Notes: generated by a model not told the origin, from the letters alone. A DNA stretch of 32,206 nucleotides from a virus (IMGVR_UViG_3300030328_003209:5701-37906); one strand, 5' to 3'. Numbered from the stretch's first letter, positions 10,627-22,395 are shown. Program-made: numbers and translations.

Positions 10627-11712
10627 ATGGCTAATACTTGGGGCGAGTCCGGAACAACCTGGGGTCAAGGTGACTGGGGCCAGCAAAACGTAACCACCGT
10701 ATCCATCAGTGGACTTTCAATTACAGGATCATTAGGAGAAACCGAAGAATTTAATGAAGCCGGTTGGGGTAGAGATCCTTATGGCGACGGGTCATGGGGT
10801 GTTGAAGGAACTAACGTAACTGTTATACCTACTGGTTTATCTATAACTGGTACAGTTAATGCTGATGGTTTAGAATCTTTTCCAAATACAGGTTGGGGTC
10901 GAGATCAATATGGTGAAGAACCATGGGGTGATAGTTATGATCCTGTAATAAATGTTTCAGGTTTTGGAATTACTGCTTCTTTAGGCGAATTACCTTATGC
11001 TCAATCAGAATCTGGTTGGGGTAGAGATGAATGGGGTATTGGTAACTGGGGAGAAAATACTACAACAGTTGTAGTAGTCGATTCATTTGAAATAACTGCT
11101 TCTCAAGGTCCAGAAGGATGGGGTTTATCTAAATGGGGTGAAGAAGTAGCATGGGGTGGCGAATTAAGATGTGAGACAACTCAGTTATCTGTAATCACTT
11201 TTGATGGTATAGAAGCAACAGCATCTCTAGGTACTCCTACACTTAATTACGACATGATCTTTGACATCACTGGTCCAGCAGCAATGGGAGCAGGATTAGG
11301 GACTCCAAATATTAATAATGGAGCAGATCATACTCAAGGACTAGCAAGTTTATTAATTAATGGTTCTGTTGGTACACCTACTATTGAACTTACTCATATA
11401 TTAACTGGCTTAGAAGCTACTATGAGTTTGACTGCACCTGAAGTCACTAATGAAGAAATAGTATATGTTACAGGAATAAGTGGTACACTTTCTCTTGGTA
11501 CTTTACCTACTATTGACGATATGTCAGTCGGAGTATCCGGTTTATCTATAACTGGTTCAGTAGGAACTCCTATTGTTACTGATATGCAAGTAGGACTAAC
11601 TGGCATTGAAATGACGGGAGATTTAGGTTCTGGGGGAGTCGCACCATTACACTATAAAGATGTTGACATCACCGGAAATACTGCCTATACATACGTAGAA
11701 CACTCAGCTTAA
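10627..11712 (+). CDS. Trp-Gly repeat fibre-like protein
   Basis: This 361-residue protein is built from repeats. Four copies of a Trp-Gly box (GWGRDPYGDGSWG at 46-58 and variants at 89, 130 and 164) are spaced about 41-43 residues apart. Around eleven copies of a GLSITGSLGTP-like strand unit run from 29 to about 336. Such regular beta units suggest an elongated fibre or appendage. A strong AAGGAGGT site precedes it. It has no enzymatic motif. Its place at the head of the fibre genes suggests a tail fibre or tail-surface protein. Confidence 0.78.
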   Translation: MANTWGESGTTWGQGDWGQQNVTTVSISGLSITGSLGETEEFNEAGWGRDPYGDGSWGVEGTNVTVIPTGLSITGTVNADGLESFPNTGWGRDQYGEEPWGDSYDPVINVSGFGITASLGELPYAQSESGWGRDEWGIGNWGENTTTVVVVDSFEITASQGPEGWGLSKWGEEVAWGGELRCETTQLSVITFDGIEATASLGTPTLNYDMIFDITGPAAMGAGLGTPNINNGADHTQGLASLLINGSVGTPTIELTHILTGLEATMSLTAPEVTNEEIVYVTGISGTLSLGTLPTIDDMSVGVSGLSITGSVGTPIVTDMQVGLTGIEMTGDLGSGGVAPLHYKDVDITGNTAYTYVEHSA

Positions 11713-13006: not shown

Positions 13007-13840
13007 ATGTCTTTTGGTTATAAAATATTAGGATTCGGAACTAATGCTAATGCCGGTTGGGATTACTTGGTTGATTATTTAGTAATTGCTGGCGGCGGCG
13101 GAGGCGGAAAAGGCCGAGGCGGTGGCGGCGGCGGAGGAGCCGGCGGATACCGAACTTCTTTCCCTGGCGGAACAATGCTTCAACTCGCAGCAGGAACATA
13201 CCCAGTTAGTATTGGGGGTGGCGGAGGATCAAACTCTGGTGAAGGTGGAACTACTACTTTCAATCCTGGTGGATCTGAAGGCGTAAACATGATTACATCT
13301 ACATATGGTGGCGGCGGTGAAACTGCTGCAGAACAAACAGCATCCCCTGGAGGATCAGGAGGTGGCGGAGTTCAAAGAGCAGCTGGAACTGGAAACGCTG
13401 GAGGTTATTCACCACCAGAAGGTAATAACGGAATAAGCACAAACAACCCGGGCGCTAACAATGGCGGCGGTGGAGGTGGTGCTGGAGCCGTTGGTGGACC
13501 ATCTACAACTGGAGGCCAATCAGCTAATAGTAATATTTCAGGATCACCGGTTGATAAAGCTGGTGGAGGCGGAGGCGCTCCCGGAGGAAGTGGCGGAGGA
13601 GCCGGCGCTGGAAACGGAAATGGTGGAAGTGCACCAGGAAACTCAGGATCAGGCGGCGGAGGCGGAAACAATGGTTTCGCAGCTGGCGGATCAGGTGGAT
13701 CTGGAATTGCATATATAAGAGCACCCGCAGCAGCAGCAGGTTTATTATCAGCATCCCCTGGATCAAACAGTGTAAGTACACTACCTACCGGAGAGACAGT
13801 GGTAACATTTAACACCGGTGGAACTTTAACGGTAGCATAA
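13007..13840 (+). CDS. Glycine-rich adhesin-like receptor-binding protein
   Basis: This 277-residue protein begins MSFGYKILGFGTNANAGWDY and is extremely rich in glycine: runs of five to eight Gly occur at about 29-46, 70-74, 156-161 and 219-224. It closes with a non-glycine tail, GSGIAYIRAPA and GETVVTFNTGGTLTVA. Gly-rich arrays with a short framing segment are known in phage adhesins (T4-type gp38), where the loops between the arrays set host range. The gene uses more GGC/GGA codons and is locally GC-richer than its neighbours. GGAGGG precedes the ATG. Role is inferred from composition and position after the fibre gene. Confidence 0.78.
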   Translation: MSFGYKILGFGTNANAGWDYLVDYLVIAGGGGGGKGRGGGGGGGAGGYRTSFPGGTMLQLAAGTYPVSIGGGGGSNSGEGGTTTFNPGGSEGVNMITSTYGGGGETAAEQTASPGGSGGGGVQRAAGTGNAGGYSPPEGNNGISTNNPGANNGGGGGGAGAVGGPSTTGGQSANSNISGSPVDKAGGGGGAPGGSGGGAGAGNGNGGSAPGNSGSGGGGGNNGFAAGGSGGSGIAYIRAPAAAAGLLSASPGSNSVSTLPTGETVVTFNTGGTLTVA

Positions 13841-14286
13841 TGGCAATATTTTGTAGTTTAGATTCTAGCAACATCGTCGTAACCACATTTATGATAGACG
13901 ATGCTGATGTTATTGCTCATGGCGGAAATCAATCAGCTGAAGCAGCAACGTGGGTTCAAAATAATATTAGACCTTTACAACCTGGTGAAGTTAGCTATGT
14001 ACAAACTTCTCCCGATGGTTCTTACAGAGCTCATAGAGCAAGTCCACATTGGGTTTATGATCCATCAAACGATGTCTTTTATGAAGCACAACCTTATCCA
14101 AGTTGGAGCTTAGATGCTTCTTGGGTATGGCAAGCCCCAGTAACTTTTCCTGCAGGCGCAGGAACAACAGAACAGCAAGCAGATATTGCTGTATGGGATG
14201 AAGCAGGTTCTCAATGGTATTACTTAGATCCATCAGAAAATCGCTTTAATTGGGACGCAGTAGGTCTTGTTTGGGTAGCTGCCTAA
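13840..14286 (+). CDS. Trp-rich fibre-associated protein
   Basis: This 148-residue protein has a conserved-looking middle: SPHWVYDPSNDVFYEAQPYP (about 68-87) then SWSLDASWVWQAPVTFP, followed by a DIAVWDEAGSQWYYLDPSEN stretch and a closing WDAVGLVWVA. I recall the QPYPSW/LW-QAP pattern from small proteins following fibre genes in cyanophages and pelagiphages. Repeated W-x-x units suggest a compact beta domain, perhaps a fibre tip or chaperone. It begins with a TAATG overlap onto the glycine-rich gene, so co-expression is likely. Confidence 0.75.
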   Translation: MAIFCSLDSSNIVVTTFMIDDADVIAHGGNQSAEAATWVQNNIRPLQPGEVSYVQTSPDGSYRAHRASPHWVYDPSNDVFYEAQPYPSWSLDASWVWQAPVTFPAGAGTTEQQADIAVWDEAGSQWYYLDPSENRFNWDAVGLVWVAA

Positions 14287-14320: not shown

Positions 14321-14336
14321 ATGTCTAGACAGACAT
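14321..14336 (+). promoter_or_regulatory. Start-codon hairpin and five-codon leader frame
   Basis: ATGTCT (14321-14326) pairs with AGACAT (14331-14336) around AGAC, so part of the start codon at 14335 lies in the 3' arm. A reading frame ATG-TCT-AGA-CAG-ACA-TGA starts at 14321 and its stop overlaps the true ATG as ATGA. No clear ribosome-binding site precedes 14335. This may be coupling or chance. Confidence 0.35.
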
Positions 14337-14982
14337 GAACTTAGATTATTATTATTGGTACTTTAAAAAAGAATTAACCCCTCATTTTTGTAATAAAATT
14401 ATTGCTGCAGCTTTCAAGAGAAAAAAGTTATTAGGCATCACTCATCAAGAGACAAAGATAGCTGCTAAAAAGAAAAACTTTAAAAAACTTTCTAAAAAAA
14501 ATTTAAAGGACTTAAGAAAAATAAGAGATTCCAGTATAATATGGATGGATGATCCGTGGATTTATGAAGTAATTACACCTTATGTAAATAAAGCTAATGA
14601 AAACGCAGGTTGGAATTATGATATAGATTGGACAGAAAGTTGTCAGTTTACAATATACGGTAAAGACCAACATTATGGTTGGCATAATGATAGTTATAAA
14701 CGTCCCTATAACATGCCGCATGAAAAAAACTTTCATGGTAAAATTAGAAAACTATCTGTATCAATTAGTTTATCTGATCCAAAAGATTATAAAGGTGGAG
14801 ACTTAGAGTTTGATTTTAGAAATAATAATAATGGAAAACCTAATATATGTAAGTGTAAGGAATTAAAGCCGCAAGGTTCAATAGTTGTTTTTCCTAGTTA
14901 TATTTGGCATAGAGTAAAACCAGTTACATCAGGCACTAGATATAGTTTAGTACTTTGGAATATAGGAACCCCTTTTAAATGA
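14335..14982 (+). CDS. 2OG-Fe(II) oxygenase (island gene 1)
   Basis: This 215-residue protein has the dioxygenase signature: H117-N-D119 in YGWHNDSYK, distal H192 in FPSYIWHRVKP, and R202 in GTRYSLVLWN, which would bind 2-oxoglutarate. The strands KLSVSISLSD (139-148) and YKGGDLEFDF are typical of the jelly-roll core of prolyl-hydroxylase-like enzymes. These enzymes use O2 and 2-oxoglutarate to hydroxylate proteins, nucleic acids or small molecules. It opens the island with a leader hairpin and ends in an ATGA overlap. The 2OG assignment is strong; the substrate is unknown. The long Lys-rich N-terminus (about 28-64) is unusual. Confidence 0.9.
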   Translation: MNLDYYYWYFKKELTPHFCNKIIAAAFKRKKLLGITHQETKIAAKKKNFKKLSKKNLKDLRKIRDSSIIWMDDPWIYEVITPYVNKANENAGWNYDIDWTESCQFTIYGKDQHYGWHNDSYKRPYNMPHEKNFHGKIRKLSVSISLSDPKDYKGGDLEFDFRNNNNGKPNICKCKELKPQGSIVVFPSYIWHRVKPVTSGTRYSLVLWNIGTPFK

Positions 14983-15554
14983 GTCAATTAACTATTAATA
15001 CTTGGTTCCCTATTGCCATTGGACAAACTCATTGTCCTTTTATTGAGGAAGTTCAATCTGATTATTTAAAAATAATTAGTAAATTTAAATATAATGAAAA
15101 TGGTTTTTGTTATGAAGACATACATAAAAATAAAAAGTTTTCTAAATTAAATAAATGGATCACACAGAGTGTCAATGAATATGCACAAGCACATTTATAT
15201 AAATATAAGTATGAAGCCAAAGATTCTTGGCTATTAGATTATCCAATTGGTAAAGGGCAACCTTTTCATGCTCATCATGGTTATACTATTTCTTGTGTTT
15301 TTTATTTAAAAGCTAGTCCTAACGATCAACCTACAATATTTTCTAATCCTTTTATTGATATGAAGAATCCTGTTGGATTAACTCTCACAAATTTTCAAGC
15401 TATCAAATTAAATGATTTAACTTACTCTCAATGTGAATACCCTTGTGAAACCGGTAAGCTGGTGATATTTAGAAGTCATATATTACATGCAGTAGATCCT
15501 AAAATAACCCCAGAGAAAAGAATTGTTTTCTCTTATAACTTTGATCCTAAATGA
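14979..15554 (+). CDS. 2OG-Fe(II) oxygenase-like (island gene 2), HxH type
   Basis: This 191-residue protein has FHAHHGYTISCVFYL (96-110), the pattern of the 2OG-FeII_Oxy_5/TIGR02466-like family. Iron ligands would be H97 and H99, or H100, in place of the canonical HxD. A distal FRSHILHAVDP gives H170, and RIVFSYNF (181-188) gives the likely co-substrate arginine R181. The ATGA overlap couples it to both neighbours. The fold is likely; the missing Asp makes catalytic activity less certain than in the first gene. Substrate unknown. Confidence 0.82.
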   Translation: MSQLTINTWFPIAIGQTHCPFIEEVQSDYLKIISKFKYNENGFCYEDIHKNKKFSKLNKWITQSVNEYAQAHLYKYKYEAKDSWLLDYPIGKGQPFHAHHGYTISCVFYLKASPNDQPTIFSNPFIDMKNPVGLTLTNFQAIKLNDLTYSQCEYPCETGKLVIFRSHILHAVDPKITPEKRIVFSYNFDPK

Positions 15555-16144
15555 TAAAAGAATATAAAATTAAAAGTTTAATATTAAGACAAAAATTTAA
15601 AGACCATAAAAAGTTTAAGAAACAAATTCTTAACTATTGGAAAGAAGGTAGCGACGAACCTTTTAAAATCAAAGATGATTATTATAATGATAGGTTAGAA
15701 AAAAGTGATTGGCCACTAGCAAATAATTGGGACCGACCATGGATTAAATATGCAGCTCCTAGTATTCATCAACACTTAAAATTATTTGCTCAACATCTAG
15801 GTTATAGAGATATTAAGCTACACAAGTTATGGTACCAACAGTATGGTAAACAAGATTTACACAACTGGCATATTCACGATGGAAGTTATAGCGGAGTTTA
15901 TTATGTTGAGTTAGATAAAAAGAGTCCAACAACAGAATTTTTATATGCAGATAATCCAAAGAAAAGTTTTACCATAGAAGTTGAGGAAGGAGATATGGTT
16001 TTCTTTCCTTGTTATATAATGCATAGATCAGCTACCAATCAAAATAAAAAAAGAAAATCAATTATTTCTTGGAACACGGATTTTGAGAATATTCAAAAAC
16101 AGTACTTGGATAATCGTCCTAAAATTGATAGGTTAAAAAAGTGA
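15551..16144 (+). CDS. 2OG-Fe(II) oxygenase-like (island gene 3)
   Basis: The 197 residues include NWHIHDGSYSGVYYVEL (105-121). H107, H109 and D110 form an HxHD cluster in which either H107/H109 or H109/D110 could serve the metal. The distal FFPCYIMHRS gives H158, and R168 in KKRKSIISWN is a plausible 2-oxoglutarate ligand. The SGVYY phrase is shared with the HxH enzymes. The start overlaps the previous stop as ATGA, and the next gene starts at a GTGA overlap. Oxygenase fold very likely; substrate unknown. Confidence 0.84.
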   Translation: MIKEYKIKSLILRQKFKDHKKFKKQILNYWKEGSDEPFKIKDDYYNDRLEKSDWPLANNWDRPWIKYAAPSIHQHLKLFAQHLGYRDIKLHKLWYQQYGKQDLHNWHIHDGSYSGVYYVELDKKSPTTEFLYADNPKKSFTIEVEEGDMVFFPCYIMHRSATNQNKKRKSIISWNTDFENIQKQYLDNRPKIDRLKK

Positions 16145-16743
16145 AGAAATTTAAAAAGGATAGTTTTGTAGTTATAAAGAAAGCATTACCGTTAGATATA
16201 GCGGAATTTCTTTTTCATTATTTTATGTTGAAAAGAGAAGTTGCAAAAAAATTAAAAACTGCAAATTTAATGAATGAGGGTGATGGTTTATGGGGCACTT
16301 GGAAAGACGCTCAAGTTCCAAATACTTATTCTCATTATTCAGATGTAGCTATGGAAACTTTATTAGTTGATATGATGCCTACCATGGAAAAAAATACGGG
16401 TTTAAAATTATATCCAAACTATTCTTATGGTAGAATTTATAAGTATGGAGATATTTTAGCTAAACATACAGATAGACCTAGTTGTGAAATCTCAACTACT
16501 TTACATTTAGGCGGGGATAAATGGCCTATTTTTTTAAAGAGTAAAACAAAAACACATAAAGTTAATTTAGCTCAAGGAGACATGCTGGTATATAAAGGTG
16601 TTCTTCTAGAGCATTGGCGAGATCCTTTTGAAGGCAAACACCATGCACAAGTTTTTTTACATTATAATAATGCAAAAAAGAAAAAAGCAATTAAATTTGA
16701 TGGGAGGGAAATGGTAGGATTACCAGTTTCATTTAGAGTATGA
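16141..16743 (+). CDS. 2OG-Fe(II) oxygenase (island gene 4), GTG start
   Basis: This 200-residue enzyme starts at GTG 16141, fused as GTGA to the previous stop. The signature is H109-T-D111 in AKHTDRPSCEISTTLHL (107-123), distal H158 in LEHWRDPF and a strand HAQVFLHY (168-175). No arginine sits in the usual place after the distal His; Q170 occupies that strand, so the 2-oxoglutarate ligand is not obvious. The combination HxDRPSCEIS and EHWRDP is a distinctive marine-phage and bacterial hydroxylase type. Oxygenase call strong; substrate unknown. Confidence 0.88.
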   Translation: MKKFKKDSFVVIKKALPLDIAEFLFHYFMLKREVAKKLKTANLMNEGDGLWGTWKDAQVPNTYSHYSDVAMETLLVDMMPTMEKNTGLKLYPNYSYGRIYKYGDILAKHTDRPSCEISTTLHLGGDKWPIFLKSKTKTHKVNLAQGDMLVYKGVLLEHWRDPFEGKHHAQVFLHYNNAKKKKAIKFDGREMVGLPVSFRV

Positions 16744-16973
16744 TAGATAGAGAAATATTAGAGAGAGAATACCAACAAAAAATTAAAGAACTTGAAGACA
16801 AACTTTCTATGGCAGAATCTGTCAAGAAAAGTGAAGTTATATTAAACCAAGGACTTAGGGATCAACTTGAAATAAAGGATATACAGTTAGAGGCAATGGC
16901 AAGATTAAATAGAGAACTAGCCGAGAAAGCAGGTAGGTTAAGAGAGCAGATAAATAAATGGAAACGTTCATAA
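16740..16973 (+). CDS. Coiled-coil protein inside the oxygenase island
   Basis: The 77 residues are one long heptad pattern: REILEREYQQKIKELEDKLS (about 4-23) followed by LNRELAEKAGRLREQINKWK. It starts with an ATGA overlap on the previous gene and overlaps the next start by 16 bases. It has no recognised domain. A helical partner, an oligomerisation piece for an oxygenase, or an unrelated passenger are the options. It is one of two non-enzyme genes in the island. Confidence 0.75.
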   Translation: MIDREILEREYQQKIKELEDKLSMAESVKKSEVILNQGLRDQLEIKDIQLEAMARLNRELAEKAGRLREQINKWKRS

Positions 16974-17527
16974 GAAAATTTAATATTGATACATCAATTT
17001 GTGACGGTTTAATTGATTATCATAATAACAATTTTGAATATAGAGAAGCCGGTAAGTTGGCGGACTATGCACATGGTGGTCCTGTTCTAGATAAGTCTAC
17101 TAAAGATTCTCTTGATGTTTATTTTTTTGGTTCTTCTAAAGATGGAAGAATTATTAAGTACTTTCAAGCCCTTACTGATTGTTTAATTGATTATCGAAAG
17201 CATTATAATTTAAATGACTATGAATCAGCACTTGCTAATAACATACAATACTACCCGCCAGGCGGTGGTTTTAAAAAATGGCATTGTGAAAGACCAACAT
17301 ACGGCAGCTCTAATAGCATAGTTGTTCAAAGAGCTTTAGTTTATATGACCTATCTTAATGATGTCCAAGATGGTGGTGAAACAGAATTTAAATATCAACA
17401 AGTAAAAGTTAAACCTAAAAAAGGTCTAACTTTAATTTGGCCAAGTGATTTTACGCATACACACAGAGGTGTTCCATCTCCTACTGAAGAAAAATGGATT
17501 GCTACTGGATGGTTTAATATACTATGA
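16958..17527 (+). CDS. 2OG-Fe(II) oxygenase (island gene 6), HxE motif
   Basis: This 189-residue protein has the hydroxylase arrangement PPGGGFKKWHCERPTYG (100-116): H109 and E111 stand where most enzymes have H and D. The distal region is DFTHTHRGVPSPTEEKWIAT, with H167 and H169 (most likely H169) as ligand and K179 in the co-substrate position. RALVYMTYLNDVQDGGETEF (125-144) is the strand pair typical of prolyl-hydroxylase-like enzymes. A Glu metal ligand is rare but occurs in this subtype. Substrate unknown. The stop overlaps the next start as ATGA. Confidence 0.88.
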   Translation: METFIRKFNIDTSICDGLIDYHNNNFEYREAGKLADYAHGGPVLDKSTKDSLDVYFFGSSKDGRIIKYFQALTDCLIDYRKHYNLNDYESALANNIQYYPPGGGFKKWHCERPTYGSSNSIVVQRALVYMTYLNDVQDGGETEFKYQQVKVKPKKGLTLIWPSDFTHTHRGVPSPTEEKWIATGWFNIL

Positions 17528-18060
17528 AACTATGGTTTAAAGAGAATACTAATTTCTTATCTGAAAATAATAAAAAATTTATTGACGGTACTATCTTAAA
17601 TAAAGATTTCCCTTATTATTTTCAAGCTGGAGCAGTAAGCTCAAAACAAAAAGATTTTTATTTCTCTCATAAAGTTTTAAATAGATTAGAAGATAGTGAG
17701 GATCATTCCAAAGCAATCAATACAGATATAACAACGTACCATTCTACATTAGATATTCTAAAAAATTTTACTAACAGTATTGGAGAGAAGCCTTATTTCT
17801 TTACAAGGATTGGATATAACCTTACTTTTAATCCTGGCTTTAATAAATGTGAATCTCATCAAGACCATGACTATGATCATAAACAAATTATTATTTATTT
17901 AAATGACTCTGATGCCAAGACTTGTATTCTTAATAAAGGCAAGATCGTAAAAGAGATTACTCCAAAGACAGGTAAAGGAATTTGTTTTAATAATTTACCC
18001 CACTATGCGGAGTTCCCAAAGTCAGGAGCTAGATTGGTCTTAGTAGCAACGTTTATATAG
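17524..18060 (+). CDS. 2OG-Fe(II) oxygenase (island gene 7)
   Basis: The 178 residues contain ESHQDHDYDHKQIIIYLND (110-128), where H112-Q-D114 is the HxD motif, followed by LPHYAEFPKSGARLVLVATF (158-177) with distal H160 and R170. The small size and truncated ends suggest a minimal jelly-roll. The cluster of His and Asp (H112, D114, H115, D116, D118, H119) is unusual in density. The gene is coupled upstream by ATGA, while the methyltransferase starts two bases after its stop. Oxygenase call likely; substrate unknown. Confidence 0.85.
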   Translation: MKLWFKENTNFLSENNKKFIDGTILNKDFPYYFQAGAVSSKQKDFYFSHKVLNRLEDSEDHSKAINTDITTYHSTLDILKNFTNSIGEKPYFFTRIGYNLTFNPGFNKCESHQDHDYDHKQIIIYLNDSDAKTCILNKGKIVKEITPKTGKGICFNNLPHYAEFPKSGARLVLVATFI

Positions 18061-18062
18061 TT

Positions 18063-19229
18063 ATGAATAAAGTTAAAAATCAATACGAGAAATATCCTTA
18101 TCCATATATACTGGATGACCTTGATGGCTTTTTAAAAAGAGTTATTCCTTTAGGAAGTCCCAGTCTTTTCTGGGAAAGACTTTGGCCTGAAAAATCTAAA
18201 CAAGATAAGTTAAATATATTAATTGCTGGATGTGGAACATTTGAAGGAGCTATGCAAGCTAAACTAAATCCACAATCAAAAGTAACTGCGGTCGATCTAT
18301 CTTCTACATCTATTGCAGAAAATGAAAAATTAAAAGAAAAACATAAACTAAAAAACTTACAATTAATATGTGGAGATTTTCTTAAGATTAAATTTAAAGA
18401 CAAATTTGATTTGATTCATTCTAATGGAGTCATTCACCACTTAGAGAATCCAGCGAATGCTTTAAAATGTTTTTACAAGTATTTAAAAGATGATGGAGTC
18501 ATTAACCTAATGGTCTATGGTACCAAACAACTATGGTCTTTAAACGAAATAAAAAAAGTTTTTAGAAAATTAAAACTAAAACAAGATGAGAAAGGTTTAG
18601 AAATAGCTGATCGTTTAATTAAGGAACTTCCTTATAATCATCCTGCAAAGAAATACTATACTCTCTGTAATGAGATGTCTGTAGCTGAAAAAATAGATCT
18701 ATTGCTTCATGCTCAAGAATGTTTTTTTAATATTAAAGATATTATCACTCTCTTAAAGGACAATAAATTATATATAAAAAATTTTATAACCCCAAATATT
18801 AATAGATACCCTGATATCTTAACTAAGTTAGATGAGTTTAATAATCTTTCTATAGAAGATAAGTTAACTATGGGTCAAATTCTAAATTTTGATGATGATC
18901 AAATAGAGATGGTTATCTGTAAAAATAAAAAAGATAGTTTAATTTATAACAAAATAAACTTTGATGACTGGGGCCTACACGCTAAAGGTTCGGAAATAGA
19001 TATTGATGACGAGTTAGAAGTGGTGTCTTTTCTAAACCCTAATATAAAATTTAAAAAATTAAGTATAGCTTTTAAGGTTAAGGACCGAGAAAAGTTTCTG
19101 TCATATGTGACTGGTAAGTCATCTGGTAAAAAGTTCTTTAAGGACTACAATAAGAAACAGGTAAAAATTATGAAAGAGTTTATATTAAAACTGTTCCAAC
19201 ATGGATATGTAGATTTTAAAATCAAATGA
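18063..19229 (+). CDS. SAM-dependent methyltransferase
   Basis: This 388-residue protein starts MNKVKNQYEKYPYPYILDDL and has an SPSLFWERLWPE segment (32-43). The class I fold follows: motif I LNILIAGCGTFEGA (50-63), D78 at the end of the next strand in VTAVDLS, and KFDLIHSNGVIHHLENP (114-130). About 200 residues after the Rossmann core have no recognised domain. The N-terminal NQYEKYPYP plus FWxRLWP resembles a bacterial methyltransferase family of unclear substrate. A protein, lipid or sugar methyl acceptor is possible. Its position inside the oxygenase island suggests joint modification of one target. Confidence 0.9.
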   Translation: MNKVKNQYEKYPYPYILDDLDGFLKRVIPLGSPSLFWERLWPEKSKQDKLNILIAGCGTFEGAMQAKLNPQSKVTAVDLSSTSIAENEKLKEKHKLKNLQLICGDFLKIKFKDKFDLIHSNGVIHHLENPANALKCFYKYLKDDGVINLMVYGTKQLWSLNEIKKVFRKLKLKQDEKGLEIADRLIKELPYNHPAKKYYTLCNEMSVAEKIDLLLHAQECFFNIKDIITLLKDNKLYIKNFITPNINRYPDILTKLDEFNNLSIEDKLTMGQILNFDDDQIEMVICKNKKDSLIYNKINFDDWGLHAKGSEIDIDDELEVVSFLNPNIKFKKLSIAFKVKDREKFLSYVTGKSSGKKFFKDYNKKQVKIMKEFILKLFQHGYVDFKIK

Positions 19230-19564
19230 TAATAGATAGATTCGCCAACTGTTTAACAGCCATAGAGTACCCCAAGAAAAAAACATCTTGGAATATTGCA
19301 GGTATTCTAAAAGATAAAAATGCTTTTTATAAATTTGATGTAAGAGAAACATTTAAGCTTCCTGATGGAACGTCTGCTCAGACAGGAAAGACAGATACTC
19401 AAGCTGATAAAATGGTATTTGAGAATGAAAATACATGGACCATTATTGATATAGAAGAATTACATAAACACATTAAAAAAACTAAACTAAAAAAGTTCTA
19501 TTTAAAGGATCTTATAGCTGAATTGGACTGGACAATATGCATAAACAAAACTCGATTACATTAG
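19226..19564 (+). CDS. Hypothetical protein inside the oxygenase island
   Basis: This 112-residue protein begins MIIDRFANCLTAIEYPKKKT and continues with YKFDVRETFKLPDG, a polar Thr/Gln/Asp-rich linker (QTGKTDTQADK), then TWTIIDIEELHKHIKKTKLK and FYLKDLIAELDWTI. The pattern suggests a small alpha/beta fold with a basic helix. It is coupled to the methyltransferase by ATGA and overlaps the final oxygenase by 28 bases. No family is recognised. It could be a partner or adaptor of the modifying enzymes. Confidence 0.8.
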   Translation: MIIDRFANCLTAIEYPKKKTSWNIAGILKDKNAFYKFDVRETFKLPDGTSAQTGKTDTQADKMVFENENTWTIIDIEELHKHIKKTKLKKFYLKDLIAELDWTICINKTRLH

Positions 19565-20130
19565 ATATATTTAAGTTTCAAGTCTATCAAACCATATTAA
19601 AGGTTGATGTAGATAAGATAAAGAAATTCTGTTCTTCTTTAAAGAAGAAAGATAAAGGAAGAAATCTTAGTAATTTAACTGGTTGGCAATCACAAGACCT
19701 TGATCTGTTTAATCTTCCCGACTACATGAAAAAATTAAAAGAACTAATTGAATCTCACGCCAATGACTATGGAAAAGATATGCACATTAGTAAGCCTTTA
19801 ACATTAGCTAATATGTGGATAAATATAAATGAGTATAAAGATTCTAATAGTCCACACATACATCCCTACAGTGTTTTTTCTGGGTCTTTTTATATAGATG
19901 TTACCGAAGATTCTGGAGGAATTAAGTTTTGGAACCCGTCTCATGAGACAATGGGATATGCTTTCAATGACAATATATCAAAGTACGAACAAACAAATTG
20001 TTCAACATGGACTGTTGTACCAATGACTTCAATGTTGATATTATTCCCAGGCTATATAAAGCATTCAGTAGAACCAAATATGAATAAAAAGCTTAAAAGG
20101 ATATCTATTTCCTTTAACTTGGTTACTTAA
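19537..20130 (+). CDS. 2OG-Fe(II) oxygenase-like (island gene 10), HxH type
   Basis: This 197-residue protein carries SPHIHPYSVFSGSFYIDV (105-122), the HxHP...SG.FY signature of the TIGR02466/2OG-FeII_Oxy_5 type, with H107 and H109 as first ligands. The distal LFPGYIKHSVEP gives H176 and RISISFNLV gives R188. Overall order and spacing resemble island gene 2 but sequence similarity looks low. It starts inside the previous gene and ends the island, 66 bases before the tail hub gene. The fold is likely; activity without a canonical Asp needs checking. Confidence 0.85.
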   Translation: MHKQNSITLDIFKFQVYQTILKVDVDKIKKFCSSLKKKDKGRNLSNLTGWQSQDLDLFNLPDYMKKLKELIESHANDYGKDMHISKPLTLANMWININEYKDSNSPHIHPYSVFSGSFYIDVTEDSGGIKFWNPSHETMGYAFNDNISKYEQTNCSTWTVVPMTSMLILFPGYIKHSVEPNMNKKLKRISISFNLVT

Positions 20131-20196: not shown

Positions 20197-22395
20197 ATGC
20201 TACAAAAGGTTAATTTTTTACCAGGATTTAATAAACAAGTAACACCTACCGGGGCAGAAGGCCAGTGGACAGGAGGTGATTATGTTCGTTTTAGATATGG
20301 TACCCCTGAAAAACTAGGGGGTTGGGATCAATTAGGTGGTGATAATCTAACTGGAGCTGGTAGAGCGCTTCACCATTTTGATGATAACGCAGGGGTTAAA
20401 TACGCTGCGATTGGTACTAACAGAATTTTATATGTTTATTCAGGGGGTCAGTATTATGACATTCACCCTATCGACCGTACAATTACGGGTTGTGATTTTT
20501 CTACTACTTCAGGTCAACCTACTGTTACAATAACTTTTCCAACTCCTCATGGAATGTCGGAAGATGATATTGTTCTTTTAGATACAGTCACCGCGCCTCC
20601 GGGCTCAGGGTTCAATGATGCAGCTTTTGAAGATAAAAAATTTATGTCAACATCCATTCCTACAGCAACAAGTATTACCATTACGATGGATTCTAATGCA
20701 TCAGGAACCACAAACAATGTAGGAAGTTGTAGAGCTCAAACTTATTACACTGTGGGTCCCGCTCAAGAACTTGGTGGATTTGGTTATGGTACCGGTCAAT
20801 GGTCAGGAACTGCTTCGGGTCCATCTACTACTACCTTAGCCGCTAATATTACTAATACCAGCACAACTACTATTACTCTTGCCAGTTCGGCAGCTTTTCC
20901 TGCTTCAGGAGAAATTAGAGTAGGATCAGAAGATATTAGTTACACCTCTAATGATGTAGCTACAGGAGTTCTTAGTGGAGGAGCGAGAGGAGTAAACGGA
21001 ACCACACCAGCAGATAGTTCAAGTTCCCCTTCTACTCACAGTTCTGGTGATACAGTAACCAATATTTCAGACTATGTTGCTTGGGGTGAATCTTCTACAG
21101 AAGAAGTAACTCTTGAACCAGGTATGTGGGTTCTTGATAATTATGGTACTACTCTCCTGGCACTTATTTATAATAGTAAATGTTTTTCATGGGATCCAAC
21201 TGTTGCTAATCCAACTGGAGTTAGAGCCACAGTTTTATCGGGTGCACCTACAGCTTCAAGACACATGTTGGTATCACCAACAGATCGTCATTTAATTTTC
21301 TTTGGAACTGAAACTACAATTGGAACTGCTTCTACGCAGGATGATATGTTTATCCGATTCTCAGATCAAGAAAGCACAAGTGATTATACTCCTACTGCAA
21401 CCAATACAGCAGGTACTCAACGACTATCTAATGGTTCTAAAATTATGGGAGCTATACGAGGTAGGGATGCAATCTATGTTTGGACAGATACAGCCATCTT
21501 TTTAATGCGTTTCGTAGGTCAACCTTTTACCTTTTCTTTTGAACAAGTGGGAACCAACTGTGGTTTGCTTGGAAAAAATGCATGCATAGAAGTTGATGGT
21601 ACCGCTTTCTGGATGTCAGAGAATGGATTCTTTAGTTATTCTGGTCAGCTTCAATCAATGCCATGCCTTGTTGAAGATTATGTTTTTGATGATTTAAATA
21701 GTACTTCTAGAAATTTAATTACTGCTGGTCTTAATAACTTGTTTGGAGAAGTGAACTGGTTTTATTGCAGCTCTAGCTCACAAGTAGTAAATAGAGTAGT
21801 AACTTATAATTATCTAGAATCAGGAATGCTTAAAAAACCTATATGGTATACAGGTTCCTTAGCTAGAACAGCTTGGGCTGACTCTTCTATTTATGCTAAG
21901 CCCCATGCTTGTTATTACAATAGTTCTAATAATAGTTCTTTTGATGTCGTAGGTAATACGGACGGAACTACTATATACTATGAGCACGAAACAGGGACTG
22001 ATCAAGTTAATGCTGGAGGAGCAGTAACTCCTATTTTAGCTACTATAACTTCTGGTGATTTTGATATTACCCAGAAGAGAGCGGCACAAGGACAAATGCT
22101 GGGAACACCAGATCTAAGAGGAGATGGAGAATATCTAATGAAAATACGTAGATTTATTCCTGATTTTATTAATCAAACAGGAGACACCAGAATTACTTTA
22201 ATGCTTAGAGATTACCCTAATGATACCTCTGCTAGCTCTTCATTAGGTCCCTTTACAGTTACCACATCTACTGATAAAGTAGATACTAGAGCAAGAGCGA
22301 GAGCTATTGCATTAAAAGTAGAAAACACAGCAGTTTCTCAAGACTGGAAACTGGGAACATTTAGACTGGATATACAACCAGATGGGAGAAGGTAA
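20197..22395 (+). CDS. Tail hub/knob protein (P22 gp10-like), beta-rich
   Basis: This 732-residue protein starts LPGFNKQVTPTGAEGQWTGG and continues DYVRFRYGTPEKLGGWDQLG (about 28-47), an opening I associate with the P22 gp10-like tail hub of short-tailed phages. Later strands include GTNRILYVYSGGQYYDI, GLLGKNACIEVDGTAFWMSE and GEYLMKIRRFIPDF, consistent with a large propeller-like assembly. A beta module at about 211-290 is shared with two upstream virion proteins. The gene follows the oxygenase island and has its own promoter-like element. Nozzle or hub role is inferred; no catalytic motif. Confidence 0.78.
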   Translation: MLQKVNFLPGFNKQVTPTGAEGQWTGGDYVRFRYGTPEKLGGWDQLGGDNLTGAGRALHHFDDNAGVKYAAIGTNRILYVYSGGQYYDIHPIDRTITGCDFSTTSGQPTVTITFPTPHGMSEDDIVLLDTVTAPPGSGFNDAAFEDKKFMSTSIPTATSITITMDSNASGTTNNVGSCRAQTYYTVGPAQELGGFGYGTGQWSGTASGPSTTTLAANITNTSTTTITLASSAAFPASGEIRVGSEDISYTSNDVATGVLSGGARGVNGTTPADSSSSPSTHSSGDTVTNISDYVAWGESSTEEVTLEPGMWVLDNYGTTLLALIYNSKCFSWDPTVANPTGVRATVLSGAPTASRHMLVSPTDRHLIFFGTETTIGTASTQDDMFIRFSDQESTSDYTPTATNTAGTQRLSNGSKIMGAIRGRDAIYVWTDTAIFLMRFVGQPFTFSFEQVGTNCGLLGKNACIEVDGTAFWMSENGFFSYSGQLQSMPCLVEDYVFDDLNSTSRNLITAGLNNLFGEVNWFYCSSSSQVVNRVVTYNYLESGMLKKPIWYTGSLARTAWADSSIYAKPHACYYNSSNNSSFDVVGNTDGTTIYYEHETGTDQVNAGGAVTPILATITSGDFDITQKRAAQGQMLGTPDLRGDGEYLMKIRRFIPDFINQTGDTRITLMLRDYPNDTSASSSLGPFTVTTSTDKVDTRARARAIALKVENTAVSQDWKLGTFRLDIQPDGRR

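Follow-up and report, generated by a model that had tools for sequence, protein, structure and literature searches.

A fibre-linked run of seven predicted 2-oxoglutarate oxygenase genes in a relative of HTVC023P-type pelagiphages

Introduction

Pelagiphages are the phages of the ocean's commonest bacteria. Eight non-orthologous genes for 2-oxoglutarate (2OG) oxygenases have been described in HTVC023P-type phages, where they frequently lie near one another and often beside ferrochelatases (Wittmers et al. 2022, PMC9599517). T4-like cyanophages carry several 2OG genes per genome (PMC3037559); S-CREM1 has ten, and 24 have been cited for S-SCSM1 (PMC9964418). Arguments for seasonal adaptation and for links to iron or heme metabolism have been built on the phage ferrochelatases (PMC9599517, PMC11561400). 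Here we analysed a stretch of 32,206 nucleotides (IMGVR_UViG_3300030328_003209:5701-37906, hereafter the window) of a 37.9-kb viral record, in which a block of ten genes with seven predicted 2OG-Fe(II) oxygenases lies between fibre and hub genes. This array is an intact, selected member of an already known marine-phage array type and is not exceptional. Its interest lies in two corrected gene annotations and in the testable idea that such arrays modify the phage adhesin.

Results

A dense block of divergent oxygenases

Ten open reading frames (ORFs) were confirmed at 14335-20130, all on the plus strand (Table 1; genes are named by their first position in the window). As proposed in the initial annotation, they comprise seven 2OG oxygenases, a methyltransferase and two small proteins. 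Five of the seven oxygenases passed Pfam cut-offs (PF13640 for 14335 and 16958; PF13759 for 14979, 15551 and 19537) and are assigned from sequence, while 16141 and 17524 are assigned from AlphaFold2 models searched with Foldseek. The tight coupling described there also held when calculated from the ORF coordinates. Neighbouring genes overlap by 4 bases in six places (at 14979, 15551, 16141 with its GTG start, 16740, 17524 and 19226), by 16 bases at 16958 and by 28 bases at 19537, and the single gap inside the block, at 18063, measures 2 bases. Gaps of 48 bases before 14335 and 66 bases after 20130 form the borders of the array, which was correctly placed between the fibre-region genes (13007..14286) and the hub (20197..22395). 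No significant family match was obtained for the product of 16740..16973 in Pfam, PHROG and TIGRFAM-type profile searches.

Table 1. Array genes and bordering genes of the window
Feature	Position	Strand	Support
Glycine-rich fibre/adhesin-like protein, probable tail-tip partner of the array	13007..13840	+	PF21722 Gly_rich_2, Pfam 3e-12
Small fibre-region protein, recurrent gene just before the array	13840..14286	+	phrog_7759, PHROG 1.4e-16
2OG-Fe(II) oxygenase 1 (P1), H-x-D...H, R at +10	14335..14982	+	PF13640 7e-15
2OG-Fe(II) oxygenase 2 (P2), H-x-H variant	14979..15554	+	PF13759 1.2e-10
2OG-Fe(II) oxygenase 3 (P3), H-x-H variant	15551..16144	+	PF13759 4e-10
Predicted 2OG-Fe(II) oxygenase 4 (P4), H-x-D...H	16141..16743	+	phrog_2954 1e-48, AlphaFold2 and Foldseek
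Predicted small protein of 77 aa with a high content of E, K, L and Q	16740..16973	+	Kept in L004, dN/dS 0.16
2OG-Fe(II) oxygenase 5 (P6), H-x-E...H, K at +10	16958..17527	+	PF13640 5e-12
Predicted 2OG-Fe(II) oxygenase 6 (P7), H-x-D...H, R at +10	17524..18060	+	phrog_274 2e-24, AlphaFold2 and Foldseek
Class I S-adenosylmethionine (SAM) methyltransferase, protein lysine methyltransferase-like	18063..19229	+	PF13847 4e-17; PDB 8hkr 4e-33
Small protein, 112 aa; homologues recur upstream of the hub	19226..19564	+	phmmer matches in several relatives
2OG-Fe(II) oxygenase 7 (P10), TIGR02466 type, H-x-H variant	19537..20130	+	PF13759 9e-22; TIGR02466 over cut-off; PDB 3bvc 1.5e-12
Tail hub/stabilization protein bounding the array	20197..22395	+	phrog_3287 4.5e-104

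The metal motif reads H-x-D in 14335, 16141 and 17524, H-x-E in 16958 and H-x-H in 14979, 15551 and 19537. The canonical H-x-D/E...H triad is present in the first four of these, and the H-x-H of the other three is conserved in most homologues and is also found in the solved relative 3bvc. The triad of 14335 was kept in 130/130 homologues (D at the +2 position in 128, E in 2), and H-x-H plus the distal H of 14979 in 157/158. For 16958, the first H was found in 29/29 homologues, with E (19), D (8) or H (2) at +2. At position +10 after the distal His, where a basic 2OG-binding residue is expected, most of the seven have R or K; 16141 is an exception with H, while most of its homologues have C. 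When the seven were compared by blastp, the matches were uniformly weak (24-40% over 30-162 residues). They are therefore not fresh duplicates, in line with the initial annotation, and a recent tandem duplication was rejected.

The methyltransferase at 18063 was confirmed by Pfam (PF13847). Its residues 4-238 align with the catalytic domain of 8hkr (118 bits, 4e-33), which is Rv2067c, a protein lysine methyltransferase of M. tuberculosis (PMC10739865), whereas its C-terminal part was not aligned. By this alignment the enzyme resembles a protein lysine methyltransferase. Among the viral contigs, close relatives were restricted to L004 and L084, and none were found in the phage collection.

The block is conserved in its lineage

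The capsid protein is 79% identical to that of HTVC027P, 76% to 023Pt_psg01 and 73% to HTVC023P, and the hub 45% to 023Pt_psg01 and 47% to both HTVC027P and HTVC023P. From these identities we assign the window to a relative of the HTVC023P-type pelagiphages, an assignment that concerns the phage and does not include the identity of its host. The order of fibre genes, array and hub is likewise shared with HTVC023P-type phages. All ten genes were present in the same order and with identical lengths in L004, a contig from another dataset, and the ratio of nonsynonymous to synonymous substitution rates (dN/dS) between the window and L004 was 0.07-0.29 for every block gene. This indicates that the ten-gene block is kept by purifying selection within this lineage. 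L084 has the same sequence up to a part of the methyltransferase. Conservation of the block, which had been put forward as a check, thus held in L004, whereas the arrays of other relatives were shuffled.

Two genes with probably misleading family labels

The closest PHROG families of 16141 and 17524 are phrog_2954, 'ferrochelatase', and phrog_274, 'DNA endonuclease V', respectively. Neither product had a significant Pfam match, and 16141 had none at E<=1. Using alignments of homologues from viral contigs as input, AlphaFold2 gave models with a mean predicted local distance difference test score (pLDDT) of 93.6 for 16141 and 92.0 for 17524. When these were compared to the PDB with Foldseek, 16141 best matched the prolyl-4-hydroxylase 4iw3 (E 3e-9), followed by related 2OG enzymes, and 17524 best matched PHD2 and prolyl-4-hydroxylase (E about 1e-6). 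The models thus clearly show the prolyl-hydroxylase (double-stranded beta-helix) fold, with TM-scores of the top matches of about 0.6 for both, which do not fix subfamily or substrate. The sequence profile of the 17524 family gave a weak match (E 0.012) to the hypoxia-inducible factor (HIF) prolyl hydroxylase 6ey1, and that of the 16141 family had no significant match among PDB sequences. The triad H109, D111 and H158 of 16141 was invariant in 134/134 homologues; for 17524, all 60 homologues shared the distal His, 59 the first His and 57 the Asp. Given the predicted folds and the conserved metal triads, we interpret both genes as most probably encoding 2OG oxygenases, and their PHROG labels look wrong. 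We rejected a ferrochelatase function for 16141, for which no Pfam family was found at E<=1 and the best folds were 2OG oxygenases, and a DNA endonuclease V function for 17524, which had no such Pfam match and matched prolyl hydroxylases best. In a literature search of incomplete coverage we found no paper calling the phage ferrochelatase label wrong.

The second label bears on a possible role in DNA or RNA modification or repair. Such a role has been suggested for Syn9 genes beside uvsX/uvsY (PMC2984593), and the endonuclease name of 17524 would agree with it. However, this label looks wrong, the array sits in a structural module, and the Pfam, PHROG and TIGRFAM-type profile searches returned no AlkB or TET/JBP family match, so that we consider nucleic acids a highly improbable target.

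On this evidence the 'ferrochelatase' family is one more 2OG oxygenase, so that counts and conclusions resting on the label need revision. A separate proposal is that the enzymes are auxiliary metabolic genes that shift the 2-oxoglutarate, nitrogen or iron status of the host. It was made for cyanophages by Sullivan et al. (PMC3037559), and the transcriptome paper on HTVC027P ties its 2OG gene to upregulation of host iron transport (PMC12753301). The 'ferrochelatase' behind the iron argument, however, looks like an oxygenase, and simple 2OG consumption does little to explain why there are many divergent enzymes, each with its own conserved metal site, next to the fibre genes. A general effect on host status therefore seems improbable to us.

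Distant relatives of 16141 (29-46%) were also observed in contigs of metagenome-assembled genomes (MAGs) of Legionella, Rhizobium and others (L190, L194-L205), most of them without other array members in the stretch examined. If these contigs are chromosomal, the 16141 family is not purely phage-borne.

Comparable arrays occur in relatives and other marine phages

Oxygenase profiles built for this analysis were run on 80 relatives of the hub and 80 relatives of the 16141 gene. In relatives, arrays of 2-10 oxygenase genes sit at the equivalent position, with fibre genes on one side and the hub on the other: sizes range from 2 to 8 in 47 loci with near-complete arrays, and L030 reaches 10. About half of one contributing cluster, P3, lacks the distal His in the alignment. 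The totals of L083 (8) and L008 (7) include no P3 member, and the finding of large arrays is therefore independent of this doubtful cluster. Arrays were also found in HTVC023P, 023Pt_psg01, HTVC033P, HTVC008M, Mosig, Syn9, S-CREM1 and Sf-FP1. The rarity implied by the initial annotation was thus not upheld: relatives carry 2-10 oxygenase genes in the same slot, cyanophages and pelagimyophages have comparable arrays (PMC9599517, PMC9964418), and we rejected the idea that the seven-gene array is unique.

In part of the P3-like cluster, Tyr replaces the distal His in 34/73 aligned members (for example L086:17049, L056:5600 and L065:2710), and cluster members often separate the 13840-type gene from the P1 oxygenase. 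Those without the metal residues are possibly non-catalytic proteins with a 2OG fold, or else a product of profile drift.

The HTVC023P-type groups described in PMC9599517 are the same kind of phage and likewise have many non-orthologous 2OG genes near 'ferrochelatase' (P4) genes. Their genes are described there as nearby rather than adjacent, whereas the seven of the window are contiguous except for the two small genes and the methyltransferase; moreover, that study counts ferrochelatase as a separate function, while here it scores as another 2OG enzyme. The cyanomyoviruses S-CREM1 (PMC9964418) and Syn9 also have, near their fibre genes, divergent 2OG genes that follow one another with short overlaps and include the P4 and P7 types. 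They differ in being T4-like phages of cyanobacteria and in having tryptophan halogenases, and no methyltransferase of the window's type was seen in them. In the pelagimyophages HTVC008M and Mosig, 2OG clusters lie beside glycine-rich or tail genes; both clusters contain 'ferrochelatase' genes and that of Mosig an 'endonuclease V' gene. These phages are, however, myoviruses with other gene sets, and in HTVC008M the cluster and the fibre genes lie on opposite strands.

Among the arrays, the most recurrent types are those of 16141 and 14335, and the remaining oxygenases are shuffled. Because the gene complement and its arrangement differ between phages, the data fit interchangeable enzymes better than a fixed sequence of steps and do not support the stepwise pathway considered initially. 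Tryptophan halogenases, a carbamoyltransferase, sulfotransferases and a methyltransferase are inserted in the arrays of relatives. Genes of the flavin-dependent tryptophan halogenase family (PF04820) were seen at L030:4410-5948 and L154:5510-6718, and carbamoyltransferase and sulfotransferase genes at L019:7857-9374, L030:6463-7290 and L080:4876-5685. Halogenase domains in such positions, together with natural-product 2OG tailoring enzymes among the structural neighbours of 16141 and 17524, would agree with a secondary metabolite tailored by halogenases and 2OG enzymes. As no backbone-making enzyme was seen in the window array, and array content differs between phages, we think this quite improbable.

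The array is linked to a glycine-rich adhesin gene

We examined 51 loci whose arrays had at least three members and whose upstream sequence was long enough for the comparison. A glycine-rich ORF was found up to six genes upstream of the array, or inside it, in 43 of them, and up to six genes downstream in one. Glycine-rich ORFs were enriched near 2OG genes (Fisher p 3e-8, in a test that ignores the kinship of these related loci). Neighbouring glycine-rich or fibre genes were likewise seen at the arrays of HTVC033P, HTVC008M, Mosig, S-CREM1, Sf-FP1 and Syn9, and the 13840-type gene adjoins arrays in relatives, HTVC033P and HTVC008M. Because the HTVC008M oxygenases lie on the strand opposite the fibre genes, the linkage there is not simply one shared transcript.

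In two separately collected sets, the similarity of array content correlated with that of the upstream glycine-rich and 13840-type genes and, after correction, was uncorrelated with the hub directly downstream. From these gene comparisons it is safe to conclude that the adhesin gene and the array sometimes pass on together as a single cassette. Most tests lost the signal, or kept it in weaker form, when loci with similar adhesins were thinned, and we therefore rejected the covariation as proof of function and take it as a sign of co-transfer only. We favour the reading of the array as an exchangeable modification cassette that goes with the glycine-rich adhesin gene.

Discussion

We propose that the fibre-linked 2OG array of HTVC023P-type pelagiphages most likely decorates tail-tip or fibre proteins of the phage itself, with a probability of roughly 45%; we infer the substrate, the timing and the benefit. 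Seven hydroxylase-type enzymes and a protein-lysine-methyltransferase-like enzyme would be made from one dense gene run that is probably co-expressed with fibre genes and hub. They would hydroxylate and methylate tail-tip or fibre proteins before assembly, the upstream glycine-rich adhesin being the first candidate, and thereby tune stability or receptor recognition. This proposal is favoured by the glycine-rich and fibre neighbourhood, the correlation of array content with the upstream fibre genes, the modifying enzymes inserted in related arrays and the match to 8hkr. The nearest folds are also those of protein hydroxylases, namely a Pseudomonas prolyl-4-hydroxylase solved with EF-Tu for 16141 and PHD2 for 17524. 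A virion-protein target, already suggested in the initial annotation, is thus plausible from the adhesin neighbours in several phage groups and the lysine methyltransferase likeness, while the substrate itself is deduced.

Several points weigh against this proposal. No modified residue is known. In most tests the covariation vanished or faded once loci with similar adhesins had been thinned (a p of 0.0007 persisted in one subset, which had just eight informative pairs, and the value for another was undefined), and it may reflect no more than neighbouring genes being transferred together. Position alone says little, since fibre regions are hot spots for insertion. The Foldseek neighbours of 16141 and 17524 include prolyl-hydroxylase-like folds that act on small molecules. 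Finally, sugar-modifying enzymes and glycosyltransferases lie near 2OG genes in other phages, and HTVC027P and HTVC023P have such genes downstream of the hub.

The last point leads to the main rival, in which the array decorates surface glycans of the host or made by the phage, perhaps blocking superinfection or altering recognition of the host surface. 2OG enzymes, sulfotransferases and carbamoyltransferases can modify sugars, and the latter two occur inside the arrays of relatives. The P4 family of S-SCSM2R sits among glycosyltransferases and sugar enzymes, and polysaccharide decoration or a secondary metabolite has been proposed for cyanophage clusters of halogenase, 2OG and carbamoyltransferase genes (Iyer et al., PMC7824862). 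In the window array, however, the profile searches revealed no glycosyltransferase or sugar-pathway gene, and its methyltransferase resembles one acting on protein lysines. We therefore regard glycans as an unlikely target.

Decoration of tail proteins could extend beyond this lineage. Several marine phage groups might share an exchangeable cassette of adhesin plus enzymes, in which a glycine-rich tail adhesin precedes a variable set of oxygenases, halogenases and sulfo-, carbamoyl- and methyltransferases that would modify it post-translationally and so diversify receptor binding both chemically and genetically; we offer this wider model tentatively and hold it to be doubtful. If arrays do modify tail adhesins, they would add a chemical layer to host-range control, which can be tested with cultured phages.

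Other features of the window

A GroES-like co-chaperonin is encoded at 1931-2368 (phrog_3188), and a small protein at 1193-1402 reads by eye like a cold-shock domain. The fibre-region protein at 10627-11712 contains, also by eye, imperfect 'GWGRDxxGxxxWG' repeats and repeated segments resembling 'GxxxTxSLG'.

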